From positions 1 to 22,571 of IMG/VR virus record IMGVR_UViG_3300009285_004574: a stretch of 22,571 nt of DNA; one strand, written 5' to 3'. Shown one piece after another: positions 8,537 to 22,571 of the stretch. This stretch comes from a virus. The translations under genes and the position numbers were made by a program. The notes under the pieces are model-generated. The model was not told the origin of the DNA. It did not search any database and saw only the letters and a list, made by a program, of their open reading frames with translations. Each line of letters begins with the position of its first letter. Position 1 is the first letter of the stretch.

Positions 8537-8854
8537 CTACAGCCGCCGGCTCCCCGCCCGCATGCGGATGTTGGCGTTCACCTGCGCGTTCTGGGCCCCG
8601 CCGTTGACGGCCACCCACGCCTGCGCCACCTCGGTCTCATCCTTGCCCAGGACGACCTCGCCCTTGTCACCCCAGGACCAGGTCCGCTCCTTGAACACCG
8701 CGGACTTGTCCTCCCGGTAGATGACCACGTCCTCGTAGACCCAGGTGGAGATGTAGAAGTAGGTGTCCCTCGGCAGGTTCTTCGGCTTCAGCAGCTCGCG
8801 TAGAGCTTCCGAGACGGCTGCGTCCTGCTGCGCCAGCGTCAATCCTGTGTTCAT
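8537..8854 (-). CDS. Small protein between MuF-like and scaffold genes, unknown
   Basis: 105 residues (MNTGLTLAQQDAAVSEALRE...). It has an N-terminal helix, then a beta-rich core with many aromatic residues (RDTYFYISTWVYEDVVIYREDKSAV, RTWSWGDKGEVVLG), and ends in a helix with a basic tail. The ATG overlaps the stop of the MuF-like gene as ATGA, so translation is coupled. Small genes at this place, between minor head protein and scaffold, are common in phages. It is soluble and has no Cys. No family recognised. Confidence 0.5.
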   Translation of the reverse strand: MNTGLTLAQQDAAVSEALRELLKPKNLPRDTYFYISTWVYEDVVIYREDKSAVFKERTWSWGDKGEVVLGKDETEVAQAWVAVNGGAQNAQVNANIRMRAGSRRL

Positions 8855-11295
8855 GCCCCGCTCCTCGCCCCGAAGATGCCGCGCCCCTGCGCCTTCAGCC
8901 GCTCACCCGTCACCTGCCCGATGGCCTGTGCGTAGCTCACCCGCCCGCCGCTGCGCAGCACCCGCCGGGTCGCTTCCAGGCGCCGGCTCTCGATGCCGGC
9001 CTCCCGCCAGCGCGGACCGTGCGTCGCCCCCTGACCCTTCAGCCGCCGATACTCGGGCCAGTTGCGGAAGCCCAGGCGCGCCGCCCGCATCCGCTCCCTG
9101 CCCTGCGGCACGTCATCTCGCATCCGGGCGTAGAGCTCCCGGTCCGTCATCGCCAGGAACTCAGGCGTGGCCTTCTGGCCCTCGCCCGCCGCCGCTACAA
9201 TCCACGGAGCCACGGAATGCCGACAATTTGGGTGGAATGGTGGCCCCGGCCGGTTCAGCCGCGGATACCCCAACGCATCGCCTGCCTCATCCACGCTGAA
9301 GACGAGGCCCTCGTAACCCTGGCAGTTGTGGGTTACGAAGCCTTCAGCGACGAAGCTCTCGTCGTCTTCCACGGCCAGGTTGAAGACAGGTAGGCGCTGC
9401 GCCACTCGGCGAGTAACCCGGACTGAGTGAAACACATACTCGGCGTCAGGCGCCGGTCCACCCCATAAAACCGCTCCACGATCTTGTGGCACGAACCGCA
9501 CAGCGTGATCATGTTGCCCAGGCAGTTCGCATGCTCCGGCACAACGAACGCCTTCACAGGAACGATGTGGTGAACCGAGGTCCTGCCTGTCTTCCCGCAC
9601 ACCCGGCAGACACGCTTGTCGCGCATCCTGGCCATCTTCGCCACCCAATACCAGTTGTCGCCGTAACCGTGCGCAGCCTTCCCGCGCCCAGTCATCCAGT
9701 GATCCGCACCCCGTTGCCTGACGGACTGGGCCCTGCGCTCTGTTGGTGTCTTCCTCTTGGAGAACGGATGCCGCTTCTGGGCATGCAGCTCTCTCGTCAC
9801 CTCGTGCGCCTTCCACGTAGACGGGCGCACCTCGATCCTGTATCTGTGAAGCCAGTCTAGCACCGTAGAGGCATTGACACCCGCGACTGGCGCGATTTCC
9901 TCCGAACTCAGCCGCCTCGTAACGTAGAGTTCGTAGAGCTGATCTCGGGTCAGGCAGAACTTCACCTGGCGCGCCGGTTGGCCCTCCTGGCTCCTGTAGC
10001 GGCACTTCAGGGAACAGAACTTCCGCCTTCCCTTCGCCACCTGGCTTGCCAGGAACTCGAATTCCTTGCCGCAGACGGAGCATTTCACCGTCGCCCGTGG
10101 CAGCTTCCGGCACCGAATTGGGATACCATACCTGTGCAGCAGTCTCGCAACGGTCGATGCGTTGATCCCGGTGATAGCTGCGATCTCGGTCGTCGCCTTG
10201 CCCTGATGCGCGTAGAGGTCCTGGAGGGCCTCCTTCTCGATGCACTGACGTGACATATTCCACCTCCTGAAGTGGGTCCTGGTGTGGTGTAGGGAAGGCG
10301 CCCCAGGAAAGGCGCCTTGTTGGGCTGCAGACCCTATCCCCACACATCAGAACTTCGTCACCCGTCGAGAGTTCTCCTGCCGCCCTCCACCCTCCTGGGG
10401 TAAGCACCGGGTGCTCTGGCGTCACGGTGAGTGATTGACCCAATGCCTCTATGGTCACCAGATCACCAGAATGCTCGTGGGCCATTGCGCGGACGACCGA
10501 CCGCCACCGACCCTTGTGTGTTCGGACCAACTCGCCTGCCTGCACTGCCTCAACCGGCTTGTATCCGGTAGATGTCAGCACCCGGGAACCCCTAACAAGG
10601 CACAGGAAGCAGAGCGTCTGGTGAGTGCTGACCTGCACCAGGTGGATGCCGGCCTGCTCGTAGCGCTGCAGCGCGCCTTCGTTCAGCGCCGCCAGCGTGC
10701 CGGTGCGCGCTGACATCTCCCCGTAGGCGTGCAGGCTGTGAACCGAGCCGTCTGCGTAGACCACCCCGCAGGCCCGGTCGATCCCCTCGACGAGCGCCTG
10801 CAGCGGCTGCCGGTCCAGCAGTCGGGCGATGCCCTGCTCTCGGATGGCGCGGCCCACGGCCAGCGGGCTGTCACCCAGACCCAGGCCGCGCGCCAGCTCG
10901 CCACCGGCCAGCGTTCGCAGGTAGTCTCGGCTCTGGCGCAGGATGGCTCCCACGAAGCGGCTGCGCTGCCCCGCCACCTCTCGCGAGAGCGCCTGCAGCG
11001 GCTCCCTCGGCAGCGTGGCGAACGCGCGGTCTACCCCAGCGGTCTGAGGGAGCGCCGCGATCCGCTCGATGGCCGTGTCTCCGCCCTGCCCGTAGGCCAG
11101 CGCGAGCTGCCCGTTCTCCCAGTTCCCGACGTAGGTGTTCAGCCGCGCAAGCTCGGCCTCTACCTGCCGCAGGAGGAGCTGGCTGCGCCGCTGGTCGAAG
11201 CTGCCGAGGGTCGCGCTGAGCAGAGCCTGCCGGATGCGTATCCCAGAGGCCAGGTAGACGCGGCGCAGCGCCTCAATCTGTGGGTCCAGCAGCAC
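8851..11295 (-). CDS. MuF-like minor head protein precursor interrupted by an intein
   Basis: An 814-residue open frame starting with GTG 11293-11295 (GGAG 8 bases upstream). Residues 1-231 and 658-814 form a MuF-type minor capsid protein. The N part is helical, and joining the halves restores STHQTLCFL plus CQGYEGLVF, then PPFHPNCRHSVAPW, the classical CxxC ... HPNCRH motif of Mu gpF and SPP1 gp7 relatives. The spliced product would have 388 residues, normal for the family. Residues 232-657 are an intein, described separately. The protein binds the portal and may be carried into the head or cell. The gene lies directly after portal, as usual. An HNH gene in another frame overlaps codons 347-655. 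Without splicing, the CxxC motif would be broken, so function probably depends on the intein. Confidence 0.85.
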   Translation of the reverse strand: MLLDPQIEALRRVYLASGIRIRQALLSATLGSFDQRRSQLLLRQVEAELARLNTYVGNWENGQLALAYGQGGDTAIERIAALPQTAGVDRAFATLPREPLQALSREVAGQRSRFVGAILRQSRDYLRTLAGGELARGLGLGDSPLAVGRAIREQGIARLLDRQPLQALVEGIDRACGVVYADGSVHSLHAYGEMSARTGTLAALNEGALQRYEQAGIHLVQVSTHQTLCFLCLVRGSRVLTSTGYKPVEAVQAGELVRTHKGRWRSVVRAMAHEHSGDLVTIEALGQSLTVTPEHPVLTPGGWRAAGELSTGDEVLMCGDRVCSPTRRLSWGAFPTPHQDPLQEVEYVTSVHREGGPPGPLRASGQGDDRDRSYHRDQRIDRCETAAQVWYPNSVPEAATGDGEMLRLRQGIRVPGKPGGEGKAEVLFPEVPLQEPGGPTGAPGEVLPDPRSALRTLRYEAAEFGGNRASRGCQCLYGARLASQIQDRGAPVYVEGARGDERAACPEAASVLQEEDTNRAQGPVRQATGCGSLDDWAREGCARLRRQLVLGGEDGQDARQACLPGVREDRQDLGSPHRSCEGVRCAGACELPGQHDHAVRFVPQDRGAVLWGGPAPDAEYVFHSVRVTRRVAQRLPVFNLAVEDDESFVAEGFVTHNCQGYEGLVFSVDEAGDALGYPRLNRPGPPFHPNCRHSVAPWIVAAAGEGQKATPEFLAMTDRELYARMRDDVPQGRERMRAARLGFRNWPEYRRLKGQGATHGPRWREAGIESRRLEATRRVLRSGGRVSYAQAIGQVTGERLKAQGRGIFGARSGA
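9333..10256 (-). CDS. HNH endonuclease (homing-type) nested out of frame in the intein
   Basis: 307 residues, read in a frame one base off the intein frame. The ATG 10254-10256 has a perfect AGGAGG 6 bases upstream. Two related helix-turn-helix units (about 11-49, AHQGKATTEIAAITGINAS..., and about 104-143, LSSEEIAPVAGVNAS...) flank a Cys4 zinc motif (C59, C62, C81, C85). The HNH nuclease is at 217-257: CRVC, then VHHIVP with H229/H230, N248, and CGSCH at 253-257. HNH endonucleases of this kind cut near their insertion site and spread the element. The stop TAA (9333-9335) lies inside the last intein codons, so the gene fits exactly inside the intein. Codons such as AGG, GTT and CCA are more common than in neighbouring genes, suggesting transfer. 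Confidence 0.88.
   Translation of the reverse strand: MSRQCIEKEALQDLYAHQGKATTEIAAITGINASTVARLLHRYGIPIRCRKLPRATVKCSVCGKEFEFLASQVAKGRRKFCSLKCRYRSQEGQPARQVKFCLTRDQLYELYVTRRLSSEEIAPVAGVNASTVLDWLHRYRIEVRPSTWKAHEVTRELHAQKRHPFSKRKTPTERRAQSVRQRGADHWMTGRGKAAHGYGDNWYWVAKMARMRDKRVCRVCGKTGRTSVHHIVPVKAFVVPEHANCLGNMITLCGSCHKIVERFYGVDRRLTPSMCFTQSGLLAEWRSAYLSSTWPWKTTRASSLKAS
10263..10268 (-). promoter_or_regulatory. Ribosome binding site of the nested HNH gene
   Basis: AGGAGG on the minus strand, 6 bases before ATG 10254-10256. A perfect site placed inside the intein coding sequence supports independent translation of the endonuclease from the same mRNA. Confidence 0.8.
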
Positions 11296-14815: not shown

Positions 14816-14888
14816 GGGCGGGGGCAGGACTCGAACCTGCGCCCTCCTGGTTATGAGCCAGGCTCGCTACCAACTGCGCTACCCCGCC
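14816..14888 (-). tRNA. tRNA with anticodon CAU (tRNA-Met, or Ile2)
   Basis: A full cloverleaf on the minus strand. Acceptor stem GGCGGGG/CCCCGCC (7 bp), D arm GCGC-AGTTGGTA-GCGA (last pair mismatched), anticodon stem CCTGG/CCAGG with loop CTCATAA, so anticodon CAT, a 5-base variable loop, and T arm GCAGG-TTCGAGT-CCTGC. The 3' CCA is not encoded. The anticodon stem lacks the three G-C pairs of initiator tRNA, so it is an elongator Met or a lysidine-modified Ile2 tRNA. The base at position 73 would be C, whereas A is usual for these tRNAs. A strong promoter lies 37 bases upstream. Confidence 0.93.
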
Positions 14889-17035: not shown

Positions 17036-17406
17036 CAAAGCTCCTCGACCGTGAAGACGACCTCCTCACGGCCTTTCCAGCAGGCGCCAGTCTCCTGCGT
17101 CACCCCGCCGAGCCGCTGCAGCCACTTCGGGCCGTCATCAGGCGTCAACGCGTCCACGAACACCCCGTCGATGAGGGGCTTGCACCCGCCGACGATGTTC
17201 CCCAGGTCCATCGAGCGCCCGCGCCGGCAGTGGATGGAGAGCCGCACCGGCCCCGTCGCGACCGGCTTGCCGGCGGCCAGCCAGGCGGCCCGGGCCACCT
17301 CACGCGCGGTCCCGTGCAGGTCACTCCGGGAGAACCGGTTCGCGCTCTTCACCCGGTTCTCCGATGTACGGTTCGGGTCGAACGGGATCACGATGCGGAT
17401 GGCCAT
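17035..17406 (-). CDS. RusA-like Holliday junction resolvase / endonuclease
   Basis: 123 residues, started at ATG 17404-17406 (TGATG with the previous stop). The N terminus MAIRIVIPFDPNRTSENRVK, with a strand then N-rich loop, and the segment DLGNIVGGCKPLID (67-80) followed by ALTPDD (86-91) match the RusA plan D-x-x-N...K...D...DD, with likely metal ligands D67, D80 and D90/D91. RusA enzymes form dimers and cut four-way DNA junctions; phages use them to resolve recombination or branched replication intermediates before packaging. The neighbouring RecT and DnaB genes fit. The first metal motif reads D-x-G-N rather than the usual D-x-D-N. Confidence 0.72.
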   Translation of the reverse strand: MAIRIVIPFDPNRTSENRVKSANRFSRSDLHGTAREVARAAWLAAGKPVATGPVRLSIHCRRGRSMDLGNIVGGCKPLIDGVFVDALTPDDGPKWLQRLGGVTQETGACWKGREEVVFTVEEL

Positions 17407-17591
17407 CACTCGCCCACCCTCCCGAGTGGTGGCCCCTCTGGCTCCGGTTCATCTCTCGCCTCGCTCCGGAACCGCACCCACTCCATGCGGAGCGCATCGA
17501 GCTCCGGGAACACGTAGGGCGTCCGAAGCACCGCCTGCACTGCGGCCAGCAGTTCTGGGGGCACCTGTTGCGTCTCACTCATCTCCATCAT
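17406..17591 (-). CDS. Small unknown protein between DnaB and RusA-like genes
   Basis: 61 residues. The start is ATG 17589-17591, 6 bases after GGAGG inside the end of the helicase gene; later ATGs at 17588 and 17582 are less well placed. After MMEMSETQQVPPELLAAVQA it has one helix followed by LRMEWVRFRSEAR and an acidic Pro-rich end. It overlaps the helicase gene by 17 bases and the RusA-like gene by one. Possibly a small replisome-associated protein, but nothing shows this. Confidence 0.5.
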   Translation of the reverse strand: MMEMSETQQVPPELLAAVQAVLRTPYVFPELDALRMEWVRFRSEARDEPEPEGPPLGRVGE

Positions 17592-18936
17592 CGCGCTCCT
17601 CCGCGTCGATGAATTTGGCCTGCGCCGGCAGGAAGGTGAGCGGCACCCACGCCGGCCCACCGTGCCGCGCCTTGCCGACGATCAGTTTGCACGGGTCCTT
17701 GTCCGGCACCGCCTCACCCTTCGGGCGGTAGTACGAGGGCCGGAACAGCAGGCCGACGAACGCGGCGTTCTCCTCAATGCGCCCCGACTGGCGCACGTCA
17801 GCCATGTTCGGACGCTTATCGTCACGGCGCTCCACATCGCGGGAGAGCTGTGTCACCGCCACCACCGGCAGGTTCAGGTTGTCGGCCACCGAAAGGAGGC
17901 CGTCCACGATTGACGAGACCTTGTGCGTCTCGTTCTCGTGCGGCCCGTCGCACGCCATGCGCTGGATGTAGTCCACGACCACCATGTCGAGGCCAGTCTC
18001 CCGCAGGGCCCGGCGCGCCTTCGACATCACGTAGCGCGGCGTAATCCCCCGGGTGTAGTCAATCCACACCTCGCCGCCGCCCTCGACGGCTCGCATCAGT
18101 GTGTTGGTGGCTTCGGCCAGGTCTGCCCAATGGCGGTCCTCCAGCCTGCCTGTCCGCAGGCGCCAGCTCTCAACGCCGGCTACCCCCTGATAGATGCGGT
18201 TTTCGAGCTGTTCCGCGTTCATCTCCAGGCTGAAGGCCAGCACCTTCCGGCCTTGCTGTGCGGCGCTGAGAGCGCAAGTCATCCACAGCGCGGTTTTCCC
18301 CATACCTGGCCTCCCGCCGATGACGTGGAGGTCTCCTCTCTGCCACCCCTGCGTCACGTCATCCAGCGCCCGCAGGCCGGACGGCACGCCACTGGTCCCC
18401 CGCGGCTGCTCCTTCAGACGCTCATATCGCGACAGCGCCTGCTCTGCCATCCCCGCCAGGCCGATGACGCCCACCGTCTCCCGGCGCCGCTCGATTGCGT
18501 CAATAGCGGCCGCCACACGGGCCACCACGGCACCCGCGTCATCCACGTCACCGAAGCACTCCTCGACTGCATCCGTCGCCACGCCGATCAGCCGGCGCAG
18601 GACCGCCTTCTGCTCCACGATGCGGGCGTAGAACTGCACGTGCGCTGCGGTCGGTATCTGGTCAAGCAAGGCCGCCAGGTATGGGCGGCCGCCAGCCTGC
18701 TCAAGCTGTCCGCGGGTTTCCAGTTCGTTGCCGAGCGTAGTGAGGTCCACCGGTTCGTTCCGGTCCGAGAGGTCCGCCGCCGCCCGGAAGATGAGCTTGT
18801 GCGCCTCCCGGTAGAAGTCATCCGAGCGCAGCACCTCGCACGCCTTCTCGATGGCACTGCCCTCGAGCAGCATGGCCCCGAGTGTGGCCTGCTCGGCCTC
18901 CAACGACTGCGGTGGAACGTGCGCGGCCCGCAGCAT
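17575..18936 (-). CDS. dnaB: Replicative DNA helicase, DnaB type
   Basis: 453 residues, normal for DnaB. The N-terminal domain opens PPQSLEAEQATLGAML with the standard PxxxEAExxxLGxxL, and continues FYREAHKLIFRA, QIPTAAHVQFYARIV. A linker helix region leads to the RecA-type ATPase: Walker A GGRPGMGKT (207-215), SLEMNAEQL, Walker B MVVVDYIQ (318-325), and the DNA-binding/arginine-finger region TQLSRDVERRDDKRPNMADV, then RQSGRIEENA. It unwinds DNA at the phage fork as a hexamer. The start overlaps the initiator stop as TGATG, so initiator and helicase are made together, and the initiator very likely loads it. Complete and with no odd residues. Confidence 0.94.
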   Translation of the reverse strand: MLRAAHVPPQSLEAEQATLGAMLLEGSAIEKACEVLRSDDFYREAHKLIFRAAADLSDRNEPVDLTTLGNELETRGQLEQAGGRPYLAALLDQIPTAAHVQFYARIVEQKAVLRRLIGVATDAVEECFGDVDDAGAVVARVAAAIDAIERRRETVGVIGLAGMAEQALSRYERLKEQPRGTSGVPSGLRALDDVTQGWQRGDLHVIGGRPGMGKTALWMTCALSAAQQGRKVLAFSLEMNAEQLENRIYQGVAGVESWRLRTGRLEDRHWADLAEATNTLMRAVEGGGEVWIDYTRGITPRYVMSKARRALRETGLDMVVVDYIQRMACDGPHENETHKVSSIVDGLLSVADNLNLPVVAVTQLSRDVERRDDKRPNMADVRQSGRIEENAAFVGLLFRPSYYRPKGEAVPDKDPCKLIVGKARHGGPAWVPLTFLPAQAKFIDAEERDDGDE

Positions 18937-19910
18937 CAGCCTGCCCCTCCCGGTATGCCCCGCTCCGCCCGGATCTTGCGATACATGGCGCGGTTTTCCC
19001 GCTCTTCCTGCTCCAGGTCGATCAGGCCGGGAACCCTTGCGGGTTCGGCGTTGCGCCTGGCCTCCTCCATCCTGCCGCGAACCGCCTCCACGAAGTACCC
19101 CCGTGGGTTATCAAAGCGCTTGCCGGCATTCGCCATCGCCGTTGCGGCGGCCAGCATGACGTCGGCCACCTCCGTGCCGGCCTTCTCGTGTTGCTTGGCC
19201 ACCTGGCCAATTGTCACGAACCGTTGCCGCGCGGATAGGGATGACCACTCGGGCAGTTCGCTGAGCGTTTGATCCAGCAGCCGCCGCTGCTCCGGCGTCA
19301 GGATGCCGATGTAGGGTTCGGTGCGCTGTGTCTCATGCATCCGTGGGGGGGTAGGGGGGGACGTCTCCGACTCCGACTCCGACTCCGACTCCGACTCCGA
19401 CTCCGACTCCGACTCCGACTCCGTACAAGTATGCACGCCATTGCTAACAGTTGCAGGCGCTTGCTCAGCATTGCACAGGCTTGCATCCGTTTGCGCGGGC
19501 TTGCATGCGTTTGCATCAGCTTGCTTACCCTTCCATCTCGCGTTGGCCGCATCGCGCCTCACGTCCGAGAGGGTGCGGCCATCCTCGGTGGGGTACTTGC
19601 TCACCTCGGATGTCAAGCTCTGGTGTCGTGTCCACGACACCAGCCGTAGATATGCACGCGCGCCAACCCGGTATCGCGTCACGAGGCCATGCGCCTCCAG
19701 CTCATCTAGAGCGCCTGAAACCTCGGCAGGTGAGATGCTCTCCAGCATGAGCGGGAAGCACAGGGCCCGAACGACGGGGGGGTCTGCCATGTAGCGCCCG
19801 GTGTCATCAGCACTCACCAGCAGGCGCGTGAACAGAAGCTGCGCCACTGGGCTGCAAGCATTCAGGTTCGGCGACGTAATGATGGACGCGCGAAGTATGC
19901 GGTCTGGCAC
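18936..19910 (-). CDS. Phage replication initiator / helicase loader with internal origin
   Basis: 324 residues, starting with GTG 19908-19910, with GGAGG 5 bases upstream. Residues 1-110 have the winged-helix pattern of phage replisome organisers: LLFTRLLVSADDTGRYMADP, SGALDELEAHGLVTRYRV, then YLRLVSWTRHQ. Residues about 127-200 are a low-complexity linker, including a Ser-Glu repeat (about 163-183) and Pro-rich TSPPTPP. The C part (about 205-300), with PEQRRLLDQTLSELPEWSSL and FDNPRGYFVEAVRGRMEEAR, is helical and probably contacts DnaB, whose gene follows with overlap. Like lambda O, the gene seems to carry the origin within its linker-coding DNA (repeats listed separately). The domain call is sound; the loader role is inferred from context. 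Confidence 0.8.
   Translation of the reverse strand: MPDRILRASIITSPNLNACSPVAQLLFTRLLVSADDTGRYMADPPVVRALCFPLMLESISPAEVSGALDELEAHGLVTRYRVGARAYLRLVSWTRHQSLTSEVSKYPTEDGRTLSDVRRDAANARWKGKQADANACKPAQTDASLCNAEQAPATVSNGVHTCTESESESESESESESESESETSPPTPPRMHETQRTEPYIGILTPEQRRLLDQTLSELPEWSSLSARQRFVTIGQVAKQHEKAGTEVADVMLAAATAMANAGKRFDNPRGYFVEAVRGRMEEARRNAEPARVPGLIDLEQEERENRAMYRKIRAERGIPGGAG
19345..19360 (+). repeat. Two G7 runs (possible G-quadruplex) at the candidate origin
   Basis: On the plus strand, seven G (19345-19351), TA, seven G (19354-19360). Four GGG tracts with short loops can be drawn, enough for a G-quadruplex. It codes for Pro-rich residues of the initiator on the minus strand. It lies next to the hexanucleotide repeat and the 10-bp motif array. 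Confidence 0.6.
19365..19423 (-). repeat. Hexanucleotide tandem repeat coding (Ser-Glu)n
   Basis: Nine perfect copies of CTCCGA on the plus strand (19365-19418) plus a five-base partial copy. On the minus strand it codes for alternating Ser and Glu in the initiator linker. Copies are identical at every base, so the repeat is recent or kept uniform; copy number is expected to vary by slippage in steps of two residues without changing frame. Confidence 0.9.
19431..19534 (-). repeat. 10-bp-phased GCAA motif array, candidate replication origin
   Basis: TTGC on the plus strand (GCAA on the minus) begins at 19441, 19451, 19461, 19471, 19481, 19491, 19501, 19511 and 19521: nine copies at exactly 10-bp spacing, with weaker ATGC and TTCC units at 19431 and 19531. 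On the minus strand most alternate copies are GCAAG, giving a 20-bp super-period over part of the array. Ten is not a multiple of three, so the protein sequence here is not repeated and the pattern must be kept at the DNA level. One helical turn spacing puts all sites on one face of DNA, as for initiator binding. Confidence 0.8.
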
Positions 19911-19934
19911 GTCGACCTCCGGTGCTGAAGGGAT

Positions 19935-19966
19935 GCCCGGCGGCCGGCATTCACCGGCCGCCGGGC
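19935..19966 (-). other. 13-bp perfect stem-loop between recT and the initiator gene
   Basis: GCCCGGCGGCCGG (19935-19947) pairs exactly with 19954-19966 across a 6-base loop. It occupies much of the 68-bp gap between the RecT-like stop (19979) and the initiator start (19910), upstream of the initiator ribosome site. No T-run follows. Beside it, CCGGGCTCGTAGTCG occurs twice (19961-19975 and 19992-20006), the second copy inside the end of the RecT-like gene, which looks like a small tandem duplication of 31 bp. Confidence 0.65.
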
Positions 19967-19978
19967 TCGTAGTCGCGT

Positions 19979-21010
19979 CTAGCCCTCAGATCCGGGCTCG
20001 TAGTCGTCGGGCACGTCGCCCTGACCCTGGAAGAGCGTTCCACCCGTCATTCCGGGCGGACACTCACTGCAACTGGTCGCCGCCAGGGCGGCAGGTGCCG
20101 GCGTTGCCTTGGCCGCCGCGGCGGACTCCTCTGCGGCCTCGATGGCCTGGCGCACTGCCTCTGGCAGCTCGCTCGCTTTGCCGTTCTTCGCCTTGCTGCC
20201 ACACTGCCGGCACAACATCGGCCAACCGCGCTTCCGCAGCCACGGCAGCAACGTCTCGTCCACCAGCTCATCACAGGCCGCGCAGGTAACCGGCAGCGCG
20301 GCCGCTTCCGTAGGCGGTGGCTCTGCGGCTGGCGCGGCCTGTGAAGCCGCCGATACCTCCGGCAGTGACATGCCGGGCATGTAGTCGGCCCCCTGGGTCT
20401 CGGGGCCCACCCACTCGTCGTTGGAAGCCAGCCCCCCCAGCACGTCGCCAAACGTGTCCCGCAGCGCGTACTTCCGCGCCCGGAAGAGCAGCATGCGCTC
20501 GGGATACTGTCTCCAGGGCCCGTCCTTGCCCCACAGGCCCGCCTTCTTCGCCTGCGCGACGCTGAAGGAGCGGCGCACCGATTGCGGCTCGCCCCTGCGC
20601 TTGACCTCGCAACTGGCCTCCATGGCATCGCCGTCACCGACGAGCCACTCCTGGATGTACTCCAGCCTGCCGCTCGCCCGGACCACGGCCAGGTCGCCAT
20701 CGCCGAAGAGCTGAGGCCGGCCATTGATCACGCACGTCCACTGCAGCGACTGCCACAGTGTCAAGCCGACCTCAGCGCCATAGCTCGCCGCAACGATGAT
20801 GTCATCCGGCTTACCGCGATAGGCGCTGGGCACCAGGTTGCTCTTCGCGATGACGCCGGCCAGCTTCATGAGCTGCTCCATGTCGCGCGGGGCGAAGATG
20901 TCCCGCAGTGCCGGCGCGGGCGGTCTCAGTGTTGGCACCTCCTCCGGGGCAGGCTCCACCACAGCCATGCCTGCGGGCACGGGTAAGGTCTCGGCAGTTC
21001 TTGCACTCAC
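19979..21010 (-). CDS. recT: RecT-family single-strand annealing protein with zinc-ribbon tail
   Basis: 343 residues, started at GTG 21008-21010 with GGAGG 6 bases upstream; GTG 21044-21046 with its own GGGGAG is an alternative. Residues about 40-210 match phage RecT-type recombinases: IAKSNLVPSAYRGKPDD, AASYGAEVGLTLWQSLQ, VINGRPQLFGDGDLAVVRA, then KKAGLWGKDGPWRQYPERML and RARKYALRDTFGDVLGG. Residues 243-270 add two CxxC pairs (CAAC and CRQC), likely a zinc ribbon. An Ala-rich part and a short CSEC-containing tail follow. The protein anneals complementary strands during phage recombination. The stretch coding SCSECPPGMTGGT is the 38-bp repeat found again at 21486-21523. No partner exonuclease is in the window; the zinc tail is not a standard RecT part. 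Confidence 0.82.
   Translation of the reverse strand: MSARTAETLPVPAGMAVVEPAPEEVPTLRPPAPALRDIFAPRDMEQLMKLAGVIAKSNLVPSAYRGKPDDIIVAASYGAEVGLTLWQSLQWTCVINGRPQLFGDGDLAVVRASGRLEYIQEWLVGDGDAMEASCEVKRRGEPQSVRRSFSVAQAKKAGLWGKDGPWRQYPERMLLFRARKYALRDTFGDVLGGLASNDEWVGPETQGADYMPGMSLPEVSAASQAAPAAEPPPTEAAALPVTCAACDELVDETLLPWLRKRGWPMLCRQCGSKAKNGKASELPEAVRQAIEAAEESAAAAKATPAPAALAATSCSECPPGMTGGTLFQGQGDVPDDYEPGSEG
20037..20074 (-). repeat. 38-bp direct repeat, copy 1 (within recT)
   Basis: Identical over 38 bp to 21486-21523. On the minus strand it starts AGTTGCAGTGAG and ends GGGTGGAAC, and contains an 8-bp hairpin (TCCGCCCG with CGGGTGGA, one G-T pair, 6-base loop). Here it codes for SCSECPPGMTGGT near the RecT C terminus. 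Confidence 0.95.
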
Positions 21011-21092
21011 TGGTCTCCTCCATTTCCAGCCGGCGTTGTCGGGCACCGGTCTCCCCGTTTGTGTCAGATCGCTACGGCAACTGATACAGACA

Positions 21093-21473
21093 TCAGCGCA
21101 GCAGGTCTCCCAGCCGCGTCACCGCCATTTTCCGCCGTGGCTGCCCCACCGGCGCGTGGACGTGCAGACGCACGCCGCGTCCCTCTGCCTCCTGCCGCAG
21201 CAGCAGCAGCGCCTCGATGCCCTCCTCACTCAGGTAGTGGCAGCACTCCAGGTCCAGGCGCACGTGCCGGCCCGGACACCGCTCGAGGAGCAGTCGGATC
21301 ATGTGCAGGAGCCTGTCGCGACTGTGGATGGTCAGGTCCTGGCTCCACACCACCTGCAGCGGCGGCGGGGCCTGCCTGCGGATGTGCGCGTCGATGCGCC
21401 GGCGCAGCGCCTGTGTGGCACGCGTCGGCAGTGAGCGGCGGCGTGGCGGCGCCGCCGAAACCAAGCCAAGCAT
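21093..21473 (-). CDS. STAS-domain protein (anti-sigma factor antagonist-like)
   Basis: 126 residues, started at ATG 21471-21473 with GGGAGG 5 bases upstream; a longer GTG-started frame would run back into the 38-bp repeat. After a basic N part (RRRSLPTRATQALRRRIDAH), residues about 39-126 follow the STAS fold: LQVVWSQDLTIHSRDRLLHM, VRLDLECCHYLSEEGIEALL, then LLRQEAEGRGVRLHVHAPVG and a final helix TRLGDLLR. This is the plan of SpoIIAA/RsbV antagonists, which bind anti-sigma kinases. At the usual phosphorylated Ser/Thr before Gly the residue is Glu84 (S-E-E-G), so it cannot be switched by phosphorylation there and may behave as a fixed state. Such a protein in a phage early operon suggests interference with host signalling, but this is inference. 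Confidence 0.68.
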   Translation of the reverse strand: MLGLVSAAPPRRRSLPTRATQALRRRIDAHIRRQAPPPLQVVWSQDLTIHSRDRLLHMIRLLLERCPGRHVRLDLECCHYLSEEGIEALLLLRQEAEGRGVRLHVHAPVGQPRRKMAVTRLGDLLR

Positions 21474-21485
21474 CTCAACCTCCCT

Positions 21486-21523
21486 GTTCCACCCGTCATT
21501 CCGGGCGGACACTCACTGCAACT
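21486..21523 (-). repeat. 38-bp direct repeat, copy 2 (leader of the STAS gene)
   Basis: Identical to 20037-20074. Here it lies in the 61-bp gap between the coiled-coil gene and the STAS gene. Its hairpin ends 3 bases before the GGGAGG ribosome site of the STAS gene, so it could affect translation. A short frame starting MDQ would read the same 13 residues as in recT, without a ribosome site. Confidence 0.95.
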
Positions 21524-21534
21524 TTGGTCCATCG

Positions 21535-22455
21535 TTAGCCGGTCCCGAGCGTGAGCGCCTTCCCGTCCAGCCACCTGGCGAAGCGCTCGACCATCACGTC
21601 GATCTCCTCACGCAGTTCACAGCCGGCCTCGCTCTCGAACTCGGGCACAGACAGCGCGCGGACGACCCGGGCGAACGCGCGTAGTTTGTCCACGTCGGGC
21701 GCCGCGGCGGCAGCGCGCTCCGCAGCCAGGCGCTCGACTTCGGCACGCCGGGCAGCTTCCTGCACCCGGCGCTCCTCCTCGGCCTTGCGGGCCAGCTCGG
21801 CTTCGGCAGCCCGCCGGGCCTCCCGCTCGGCGGCAGCTTCGGCGGCCAGGCGCTCTGCTTCAGCACGCAGGCCCTCGCGCTCCTGCCGGTCGGCTTCCTC
21901 GCGGGCCAAGCGCTCCGCCTGCGCAAATGCCTCGGCCGCTTCGGCCGCTTCTTTCGACTCCTTGCAGCGAGCGAGGAGGGCGGTGAACTGCTCCTCGAAC
22001 AGCGTGGCGAGGTCCATTACCAGGCAGTGCTCGGCGTAAGGCGCCATCTGCTCCTCGCGCGCTGCCTGCAAAGCGGCGATCCTGGCCTTCCGGGCGATCT
22101 CCTCGACGCGCTCGATCGCGTCCATGCGCTCCTCGAGCGGCTTGAGGCGCTCCAGGAGGAGACGGTTCACGCCGTCGATAGCCTGGCCGCGCCGGAGGCT
22201 GTCCTCCTTCAGCGCCCTGCGCGTCTTCTCGGCGTCGACACGGATGCTCTTCAGCCGCATCCGCATGGCGCGGGCCACGTCGGGCGCGTCCTGCGGCACG
22301 GCCAGGGCCGCCTCCTCGATGCCGACGAAGGCAGCGAAGTGGGGGGCGTAGGCGTTGCGCAGGAGGGCCACGCTCTCCTGCGCCAACCCGGTCCTGCTGA
22401 TCTCCTGGTCGAGCTCCGCCGGCACCAGTGCGGCGGTTTGCGTCTCAGTGTGCAT
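21535..22455 (-). CDS. Coiled-coil phage protein upstream of recT
   Basis: 306 residues, starting MHTETQTAALVPAELDQEIS at ATG 22453-22455, with GAGGA about 12 bases upstream. The N part (about 20-140) has KSIRVDAEKTRRALKEDSLR and IDGVNRLLLERLKPLEERMD, a pattern seen in phage proteins encoded beside recT-type genes (DUF1351-like). Residues about 160-265 are a long charged coiled coil of Ala/Glu/Arg-rich heptads (AERLAREEADRQEREGLRAE and following). A small C-terminal domain (ELREEIDVMVERFARWLDG) ends it. It probably assists recombination or replication, but no activity can be read from the sequence. Confidence 0.62.
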   Translation of the reverse strand: MHTETQTAALVPAELDQEISRTGLAQESVALLRNAYAPHFAAFVGIEEAALAVPQDAPDVARAMRMRLKSIRVDAEKTRRALKEDSLRRGQAIDGVNRLLLERLKPLEERMDAIERVEEIARKARIAALQAAREEQMAPYAEHCLVMDLATLFEEQFTALLARCKESKEAAEAAEAFAQAERLAREEADRQEREGLRAEAERLAAEAAAEREARRAAEAELARKAEEERRVQEAARRAEVERLAAERAAAAAPDVDKLRAFARVVRALSVPEFESEAGCELREEIDVMVERFARWLDGKALTLGTG

Positions 22456-22571
22456 AAGGCTGCTTTCCTCGCCGGCCTGCCCGCTCCGCACGGCGCCGCC
22501 GCACGTCGCGGAAGTGCTCCCTGATGGCCAGCTCCTCGGCGGTCGGCTCCCGCCGCGGCGGGATGCGCACC
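22445..22571 (-). CDS. C-terminal end of an unknown basic protein (cut by window edge)
   Basis: The last 42 or so codons of a gene that enters from the right edge, ending with TGA at 22445-22447 and overlapping the coiled-coil gene start by 11 bases. The visible part reads VRIPPRREPTAEELAIREHF, then RDVRRRRAERAGRRGKQPYAH, with one helix and a very basic tail. Third positions are GC-rich as in neighbouring genes, which supports it. Function unknown. Confidence 0.45.
   Translation of the reverse strand, partial: VRIPPRREPTAEELAIREHFRDVRRRRAERAGRRGKQPYAH

Follow-up and report, generated by a model that had tools for sequence, protein, structure and literature searches.

The segment at 19345-19534 of the viral DNA analysed here is likely to be a phage replication origin that lies within its own initiator gene, in the stretch encoding the linker, and is built of iterons that the winged-helix (wHTH) domain of this initiator would bind. 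The analysis has demonstrated the repeat array, its constraint at the DNA level, its conserved position and spacing of one helical turn despite different motifs in relatives, the constant presence of a second repeat, a wHTH fold and the neighbouring dnaB gene. Binding, strand opening at the second repeat (element B), helicase loading and origin activity are inferred, and our searches turned up neither binding nor replication data on any of the initiators in this family. The sequence studied is IMG/VR record IMGVR_UViG_3300009285_004574, positions 1 to 22,571, and "the window" refers to this whole stretch of 22,571 nucleotides.

The replication locus

The coding strand at the locus is the minus strand. 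The initiator gene (18936-19910, minus strand) has a GTG start and encodes 324 amino acids; it was assigned by its open reading frame, by PHROG matches and by an AlphaFold2 model. Its reading frame matches PHROG 'replication initiation protein' (E 6e-18), with profiles phrog_1408, phrog_2149 and phrog_16167 covering the N-terminal domain and the linker at E 6e-18 to 2e-11, and PHROG initiation-protein profiles are matched by 56 of the 56 aligned family members. Directly downstream, and abutting the initiator gene, lies the gene for a DnaB-type replicative helicase (17575-18936, minus strand; Pfam DnaB and DnaB_C, E 3e-69). A gene for a RecT-like single-strand annealing protein is located directly upstream (19979-21046, minus strand; phrog_561, E 6e-36).

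Two further features of the window were observed away from this locus. A tRNA-Met(CAT) gene (14816-14888, minus strand) is located near the terminase genes, and a minor-capsid-type gene (8851-11295, minus strand) contains an intein with Pfam Intein_splicing and Hint matches. Inside this intein, on the same strand and in another reading frame, a 336-amino-acid open reading frame with HTH and HNH endonuclease parts is present (9333-10343, minus strand), so that the endonuclease is probably encoded out of frame within the intein, as far as can be judged from sequence alone.

A one-turn array in the linker-coding region

The array (element A, 19431-19534, minus strand) is located in the middle of the gene, about 0.4 kb into the initiator coding sequence. 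An earlier note on this sequence had reported nine TTGC/GCAA motifs at 10-bp intervals, and all nine were confirmed: TTGC, read as GCAA on the coding strand, starts at 19441, 19451 and so on to 19521, exactly 10 bp apart, giving nine perfect units with a core at 19441-19524. Units with one mismatch flank this run at both ends (ATGC at 19431 and TTCC at 19531), and the unit consensus is approximately CAA(G/A)CNNATG. The second-longest run of any 4-mer at 10-bp distance in the window comprises three copies, and the chance expectation for the run of nine is about 1e-17 (our own product of counts, with 96 TTGC on that strand). The partial 20-bp alternation of GCAAG described in the same note holds for four units (CTTGC, on the coding strand GCAAG, at 19460, 19480, 19500 and 19520), and TRF detects a period of 20 bp at 19471-19524.

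In the direction of transcription the 10-bp array is followed by a 6-bp tandem repeat and two G7 runs, both of which had been claimed earlier and are present. The tandem repeat (element B, 19365-19423, minus strand) consists of 9.8 copies with 100% matches, reading CTCCGA on the plus strand and GAGTCG on the coding strand, where it encodes Ser-Glu repeats. The G7 runs are located at 19345-19351 and 19354-19360 on the plus strand (GGGGGGGTAGGGGGGG, 19345-19360). Two related loci (L012 and L009) also showed, by eye, pairs of G or C runs, six or seven long, a short way past the tandem repeat, without assessment of significance. Among 90-bp stretches of the window, the array ranks second in A+T content (0.46 versus 0.32 overall), and element B, at 0.32, equals the window average. 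Thus, judged by the composition of the window, no classical AT-rich unwinding element was found beside the array, which is only moderately A+T-rich itself, a point that counts against the origin reading.

The constraint acts on the DNA

A 10-bp step does not divide into whole codons, so the array runs through all three codon phases. In 5000 synonymous recodings of the initiator gene, in which codons were swapped for synonyms according to the gene's own codon usage, the run of nine was never reached; the longest run of an identical 4-mer at lag 10 was seven, compared to nine observed. A codon-preserving null was also applied to 73 deduplicated initiator genes including that of the window, with the region fixed at gene nucleotides 270-420. 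Here lag 10 was significant at p<=0.05 in 52 of the 73 genes and at p<=0.001 in 18, while lags 7, 8, 9, 12, 13 and 14 were at chance level. The fixed region misses part of the window's array, and the window gene alone gave p 0.026. This null is conservative since the array itself shapes the protein sequence. The codon-preserving nulls show that the constraint on the array acts at the DNA level, and the claim that DNA rather than protein is constrained is thereby supported.

Relatives keep the spacing and change the motif

No near relatives above about 40% identity to the window initiator were found; a whole-protein search for close relatives returned one partial match in viral contigs and none in genome contigs, and the array motif of the window is known from a single record, which weighs against the origin reading. 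The comparison covered phage records with roughly 30% identity in the N-terminal domain (L004-L017), together with 240 IMG/VR loci that fall into three clades: c1, which is nearest to the window, c2 with enterobacterial and pseudomonad phages such as HK639, and c3 with actinobacterial and other phages.

In deduplicated c1 relatives, the linker DNA just behind the wHTH part is enriched in 4-mer matches x14 at lag 10, x9 at lag 20 and x5 at lag 30. Lag 11 is enriched in the linker DNA of the other two clades, x7 in c2 and x9 in c3, the latter with mainly 11 and some 10. The winged-helix and C-terminal coding regions of the relatives show about 1-3x and no such lag peak, and by far the commonest best lag per gene in the array region is 10 or 11. 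In 54 of 63 deduplicated c1 loci (2.8 expected) it is the linker that holds the strongest lag-10 signal of the whole locus (about 5 kb), and in 28 of 37 c2 loci (1.6 expected) the linker holds the lag-11 maximum; c3 is noisier than c1 and c2 in this respect. According to the same earlier note, the origin reading would be refuted if relatives had kept the protein but lost the 10-bp spacing. The c1 loci did not refute it in this way, although the motif differs, and the more distant clades use mainly 11 bp, which is still one helical turn.

The units themselves are mostly CANNTG-like in c1, unlike the GCAA of the window, GTGCAAG(T/A)ACA-like in c2 and ACGCGT-like or CTCAC-like in c3; three loci (L004, L007 and L049) have TGCGGC(AA). 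What stays the same across these motifs is therefore the placing of one unit in each turn of the helix. A 10-bp unit model was trained on c1 relatives only, excluding the window, and used to scan both strands of the 22.6-kb window. Its best five-unit site lies on the minus strand from 19523 downwards with 21.8 bits, compared to 12.0 bits for the best site outside the array and a mean of -46.8 (sd 12.1). The window units read as a variant of the c1 unit. In one c1 initiator gene (L084, 2830-3060) the CANNTG-type units stand 11 bp apart and not 10, a naturally occurring change of spacing that leaves the type of motif as it was.

A short tandem repeat as second element

The hexanucleotide repeat had been described as a neighbour of the array; the comparison refines this, since it belongs to the architecture. 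In the relatives a short tandem repeat of 5-8 bp is usually located behind the array, with a period specific to the clade: 5-6 bp in c1 (AATCC, GAATCC, CGAGAAT), 7/14/21 bp in c2 (TGATTCC...) and 5-8 bp in c3 (GGAAGG, GGAACAGG). The CTCCGA repeat of the window corresponds to these elements. A universal GGA repeat as element B was considered and rejected; what the clades have in common is repetitiveness and position, not sequence.

Two loci provide a natural experiment (L072 and L083). A NucS-like domain is inserted between winged helix and linker and the c1 array is absent from its usual place, while a new phased array of ACGTTAAATC units is found about 0.7 kb into the gene, directly before the AATCC repeat; this is clearest in L072. 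Nuclease-like domains of several types (HNH, T5orf172/GIY-type, NucS-like) were observed in the initiator linker of these two loci and of two others (L011:1489-2571 and L261:1971-3152). The linker that holds them would be the place of the presumed origin.

Fold and family of the initiator

AlphaFold2, run with an alignment of 56 sequences, predicts a winged helix, a disordered linker and a helical C-terminus. The winged helix (residues 8-96, codons at 19623-19889, minus strand) is modelled with confidence (pLDDT 92-98) and is supported by secondary structure and structural matches; residues 146-199 are disordered (pLDDT < 50). Foldseek places the DNA-binding domain of RepA_N plasmid initiators at ranks 1-3 (4pql and 4pt7, E about 0.01), and VIA-align gives Z 7.5 for RepA_N structures, tied with many generic winged helices. 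The predicted fold is thus generic for winged helices, and these matches do not establish that it derives from RepA_N. At the sequence level, no Pfam match to RepA_N (PF06970) was found in the window protein or in 55 relatives, Phage_rep_O had no Pfam match in the window, PDB sequence searches returned no relatives, and no homology to lambda O or phi80 gp15 was detected (hhalign probability 0.2% and 1%). The replisome organiser TP901-1 Rep was rejected as a homologue (hhalign probability 0.2%). Plasmid carriers were rejected as independent proof of origin activity, the matches being phage-plasmid or prophage-like records.

The C-terminal domains vary among members (DnaD, Phg_2220_C and others). 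Such variation would fit an N-terminus that recognises the origin and a C-terminus tailored to the partner in helicase loading.

Blind scans and a second protein family

Blind DNA scans of 2.9 million viral contigs were carried out without any protein information. Five CANNTG at 10-bp distance were found in 72 viral loci, and in 34 of these an initiator wHTH ends no more than 60 nt from the array. The scan for six GCAA units gave 80 loci, 55 of which are simple 5- or 10-bp tandem repeats; a wHTH initiator was present in one (L345) and another type of protein in 15. GCAA arrays alone were therefore rejected as a diagnostic for origins, being mostly simple tandem repeats with a single wHTH initiator among the 80 loci.

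The protein in the latter 15 loci is mostly DUF6291 (PF19808), a domain of unknown function; Pfam matches were above the curated cut-off in 8 of 9 scanned. The array is located behind the DUF6291 domain, in most cases with a short tandem repeat next to it, and a DnaB-type reading frame was seen by eye downstream of the gene in several (L270, L278, L321 and L327). The bipartite layout of a 10-bp array followed by a 6-bp tandem repeat was observed in L270, L278, L279, L298, L311, L314, L321, L327 and L418-L496. To remove the search bias, DUF6291 relatives were gathered by protein alone, leaving out the loci derived from arrays. In the 37 deduplicated loci obtained, lag 10 is enriched x11 and lags 20 and 30 x9 just behind the domain, followed by lag 6 at x20 after the array; the motifs again vary.

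DUF6291 and the family of the window initiator showed no homology by hhalign (probability 5%, with the alignment confined to the low-complexity linker), and the common layout therefore looks convergent or modular. From the sequence layout we infer that DUF6291 is probably an origin-binding domain. A bolder reading, towards which the evidence in our view leans only slightly, is that at least two unrelated families of phage initiators (wHTH PHROG_1408-like and DUF6291) have converged on one linker-nested origin design: a dense row of 4-6 bp motifs whose spacing of exactly one helical turn, 10 or 11 bp, does not match the codon frame, and behind it a tandem repeat of 5-8 bp. The motifs would turn over fast while the spacing is held, so that spacing and not sequence would identify such origins, and DUF6291 would be an uncharacterised initiator DNA-binding domain.

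Proposed mechanism and alternative explanations

We propose that element A is an iteron array of which the N-terminal winged helix would bind one unit per helical turn, and that the winged helices may pack side by side into a cooperative row along one face of the DNA. This row would strain element B, where the duplex would be opened or a single strand held, and the C-terminal domain would then recruit the DnaB helicase encoded by the next gene. Every step beyond a phased array of sites in the initiator gene is inferred from sequence alone.

The alternative that survives best is that the array is an operator or another binding site, for the initiator or a different phage protein, which autoregulates the operon or serves as a road-block, partition or packaging site, with the origin located elsewhere. 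Short repeats phased at one turn commonly occur in cooperative operators too, and in some partition sites, and the sequence reveals a phased protein-binding array, not its role. Against this explanation, the array is located mid-gene and specifically in initiator families, no promoter-like site was found in 17400-22571, the blind CANNTG scan leads mainly to the initiator gene, and intragenic arrays are origins in all characterised precedents examined (PMC7466680, PMC6316719, PMC5703833). We consider it unlikely, but a regulatory or partition role cannot be excluded by sequence.

It might also be possible that the array is an origin whose phased sites are read by a host factor such as DnaA, IHF or HU, or act via intrinsic bending. 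The AA steps of GCAA every 10 bp might add curvature, and lambda iterons are intrinsically bent (PMC7466680). However, the motifs vary between phage clades and within one clade, unlike the consensus of a host factor, and some motifs contain few AA steps, for example the ACGCGT units of c3, which makes this explanation very improbable.

Equally hard to maintain is a by-product of coding or mutation without DNA function, that is, slippage repeats in a low-complexity linker or the periodicity of an amphipathic helix (about 10.5 bp): the linker is predicted to be disordered and thus repeat-tolerant, and the period of 6 in the window's element B keeps the frame, but slippage by 10 or 11 bp breaks it and yet lags 10 and 11 outweigh 30 and 33, periods of 5, 7 and 8 in the element B of relatives are also frame-breaking, the motif changes completely between clades with the spacing still at one turn, and a cause in the protein only is rejected by the codon-preserving null, so that neither helix periodicity nor slippage remains as sole cause.

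Comparison with known origins

The reading as an initiator-bound origin has precedents in lambda O, SPP1 gp38 and RepA_N plasmids, in which origins are nested in initiator genes (PMC7466680, PMC6316719, PMC5703833). The window has one of the features that mark an intragenic iteron origin, which is a kind of origin and not a family by homology, namely a direct-repeat array inside the initiator gene that is conserved at the DNA level; cognate binding and a need for the array in replication are inferred. The earlier proposal of a lambda-O-like origin nested in an initiator gene ahead of dnaB is supported, with the likeness being one of architecture and not of descent.

Lambda resembles the window in that its iterons (O gene nt 349-433, L264) fall in the linker-coding stretch of the initiator gene, almost equally far from its start, with the helicase-loading gene next. 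Unlike the window, lambda O and phi80 gp15 have four sites of 15-18 bp about 20-24 bp apart (about 21 bp in phi80 gp15, L267) instead of one short motif per turn, and an AT-rich tract in place of the 5-8 bp tandem repeat. The criterion for lambda O-type iterons (about 18 bp, 20-24 bp apart, AT-rich tract next) is not met by the window, with its 10-bp spacing and an element B of 32% A+T. SPP1 oriL is similar in that direct repeats bound by the initiator are located inside gene 38, with a helicase loader and a DnaB-type helicase next (PMC6316719), such binding being inferred for the window; it differs in having an AT-rich DUE.

In the RepA_N plasmids (pSK41, pTZ2162 rep) the N-terminal winged helix binds repeats in the middle of its own gene and the C-terminal domain recruits the replication machinery (PMC5703833), both of which are inferred for the window; in these plasmids the protein can do without the linker that the origin encodes (PMC5703833). 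However, pSK41 has four Rep boxes with 8-9 bp inverted sub-repeats around an A-tract (PMC5703833, PMC7145576), whereas the window has a dense one-turn array of 4-6 bp motifs and then a short tandem repeat, in a phage and adjoining dnaB. Bacterial oriC, with DnaA boxes and DnaA-trios, and the DnaD recognition element likewise have double-strand sites followed by a short repeat read on one strand (PMC8287927, PMC10201434), but the proteins are different, and recognition of element B as a single strand is suggested only by this analogy. For mycobacteriophage RepA, origins were suspected within or beside repA, and no repeats were found there (PMC7157519).

The window's element is set apart from the known intragenic origins by its density of one short motif per turn, the rapid turnover of the motif, the tandem repeat as second element and the absence of any homology that could be detected to lambda O, phi80 gp15 or TP901-1 Rep. 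No earlier description of the bipartite layout was found in the literature searched, which covered the field partially and included few subscription journals.

Significance

The origins of most phages have yet to be mapped. If this class is defined by its spacing and layout and not by sequence, raw sequence would be enough to predict origins in many temperate phages across several phyla of bacteria, and a function would be suggested for DUF6291. The initiator family would then also be a good system to study how one stretch of DNA serves both as reading frame and as phased protein-binding array, and to ask how an initiator and its iteron motif change together.
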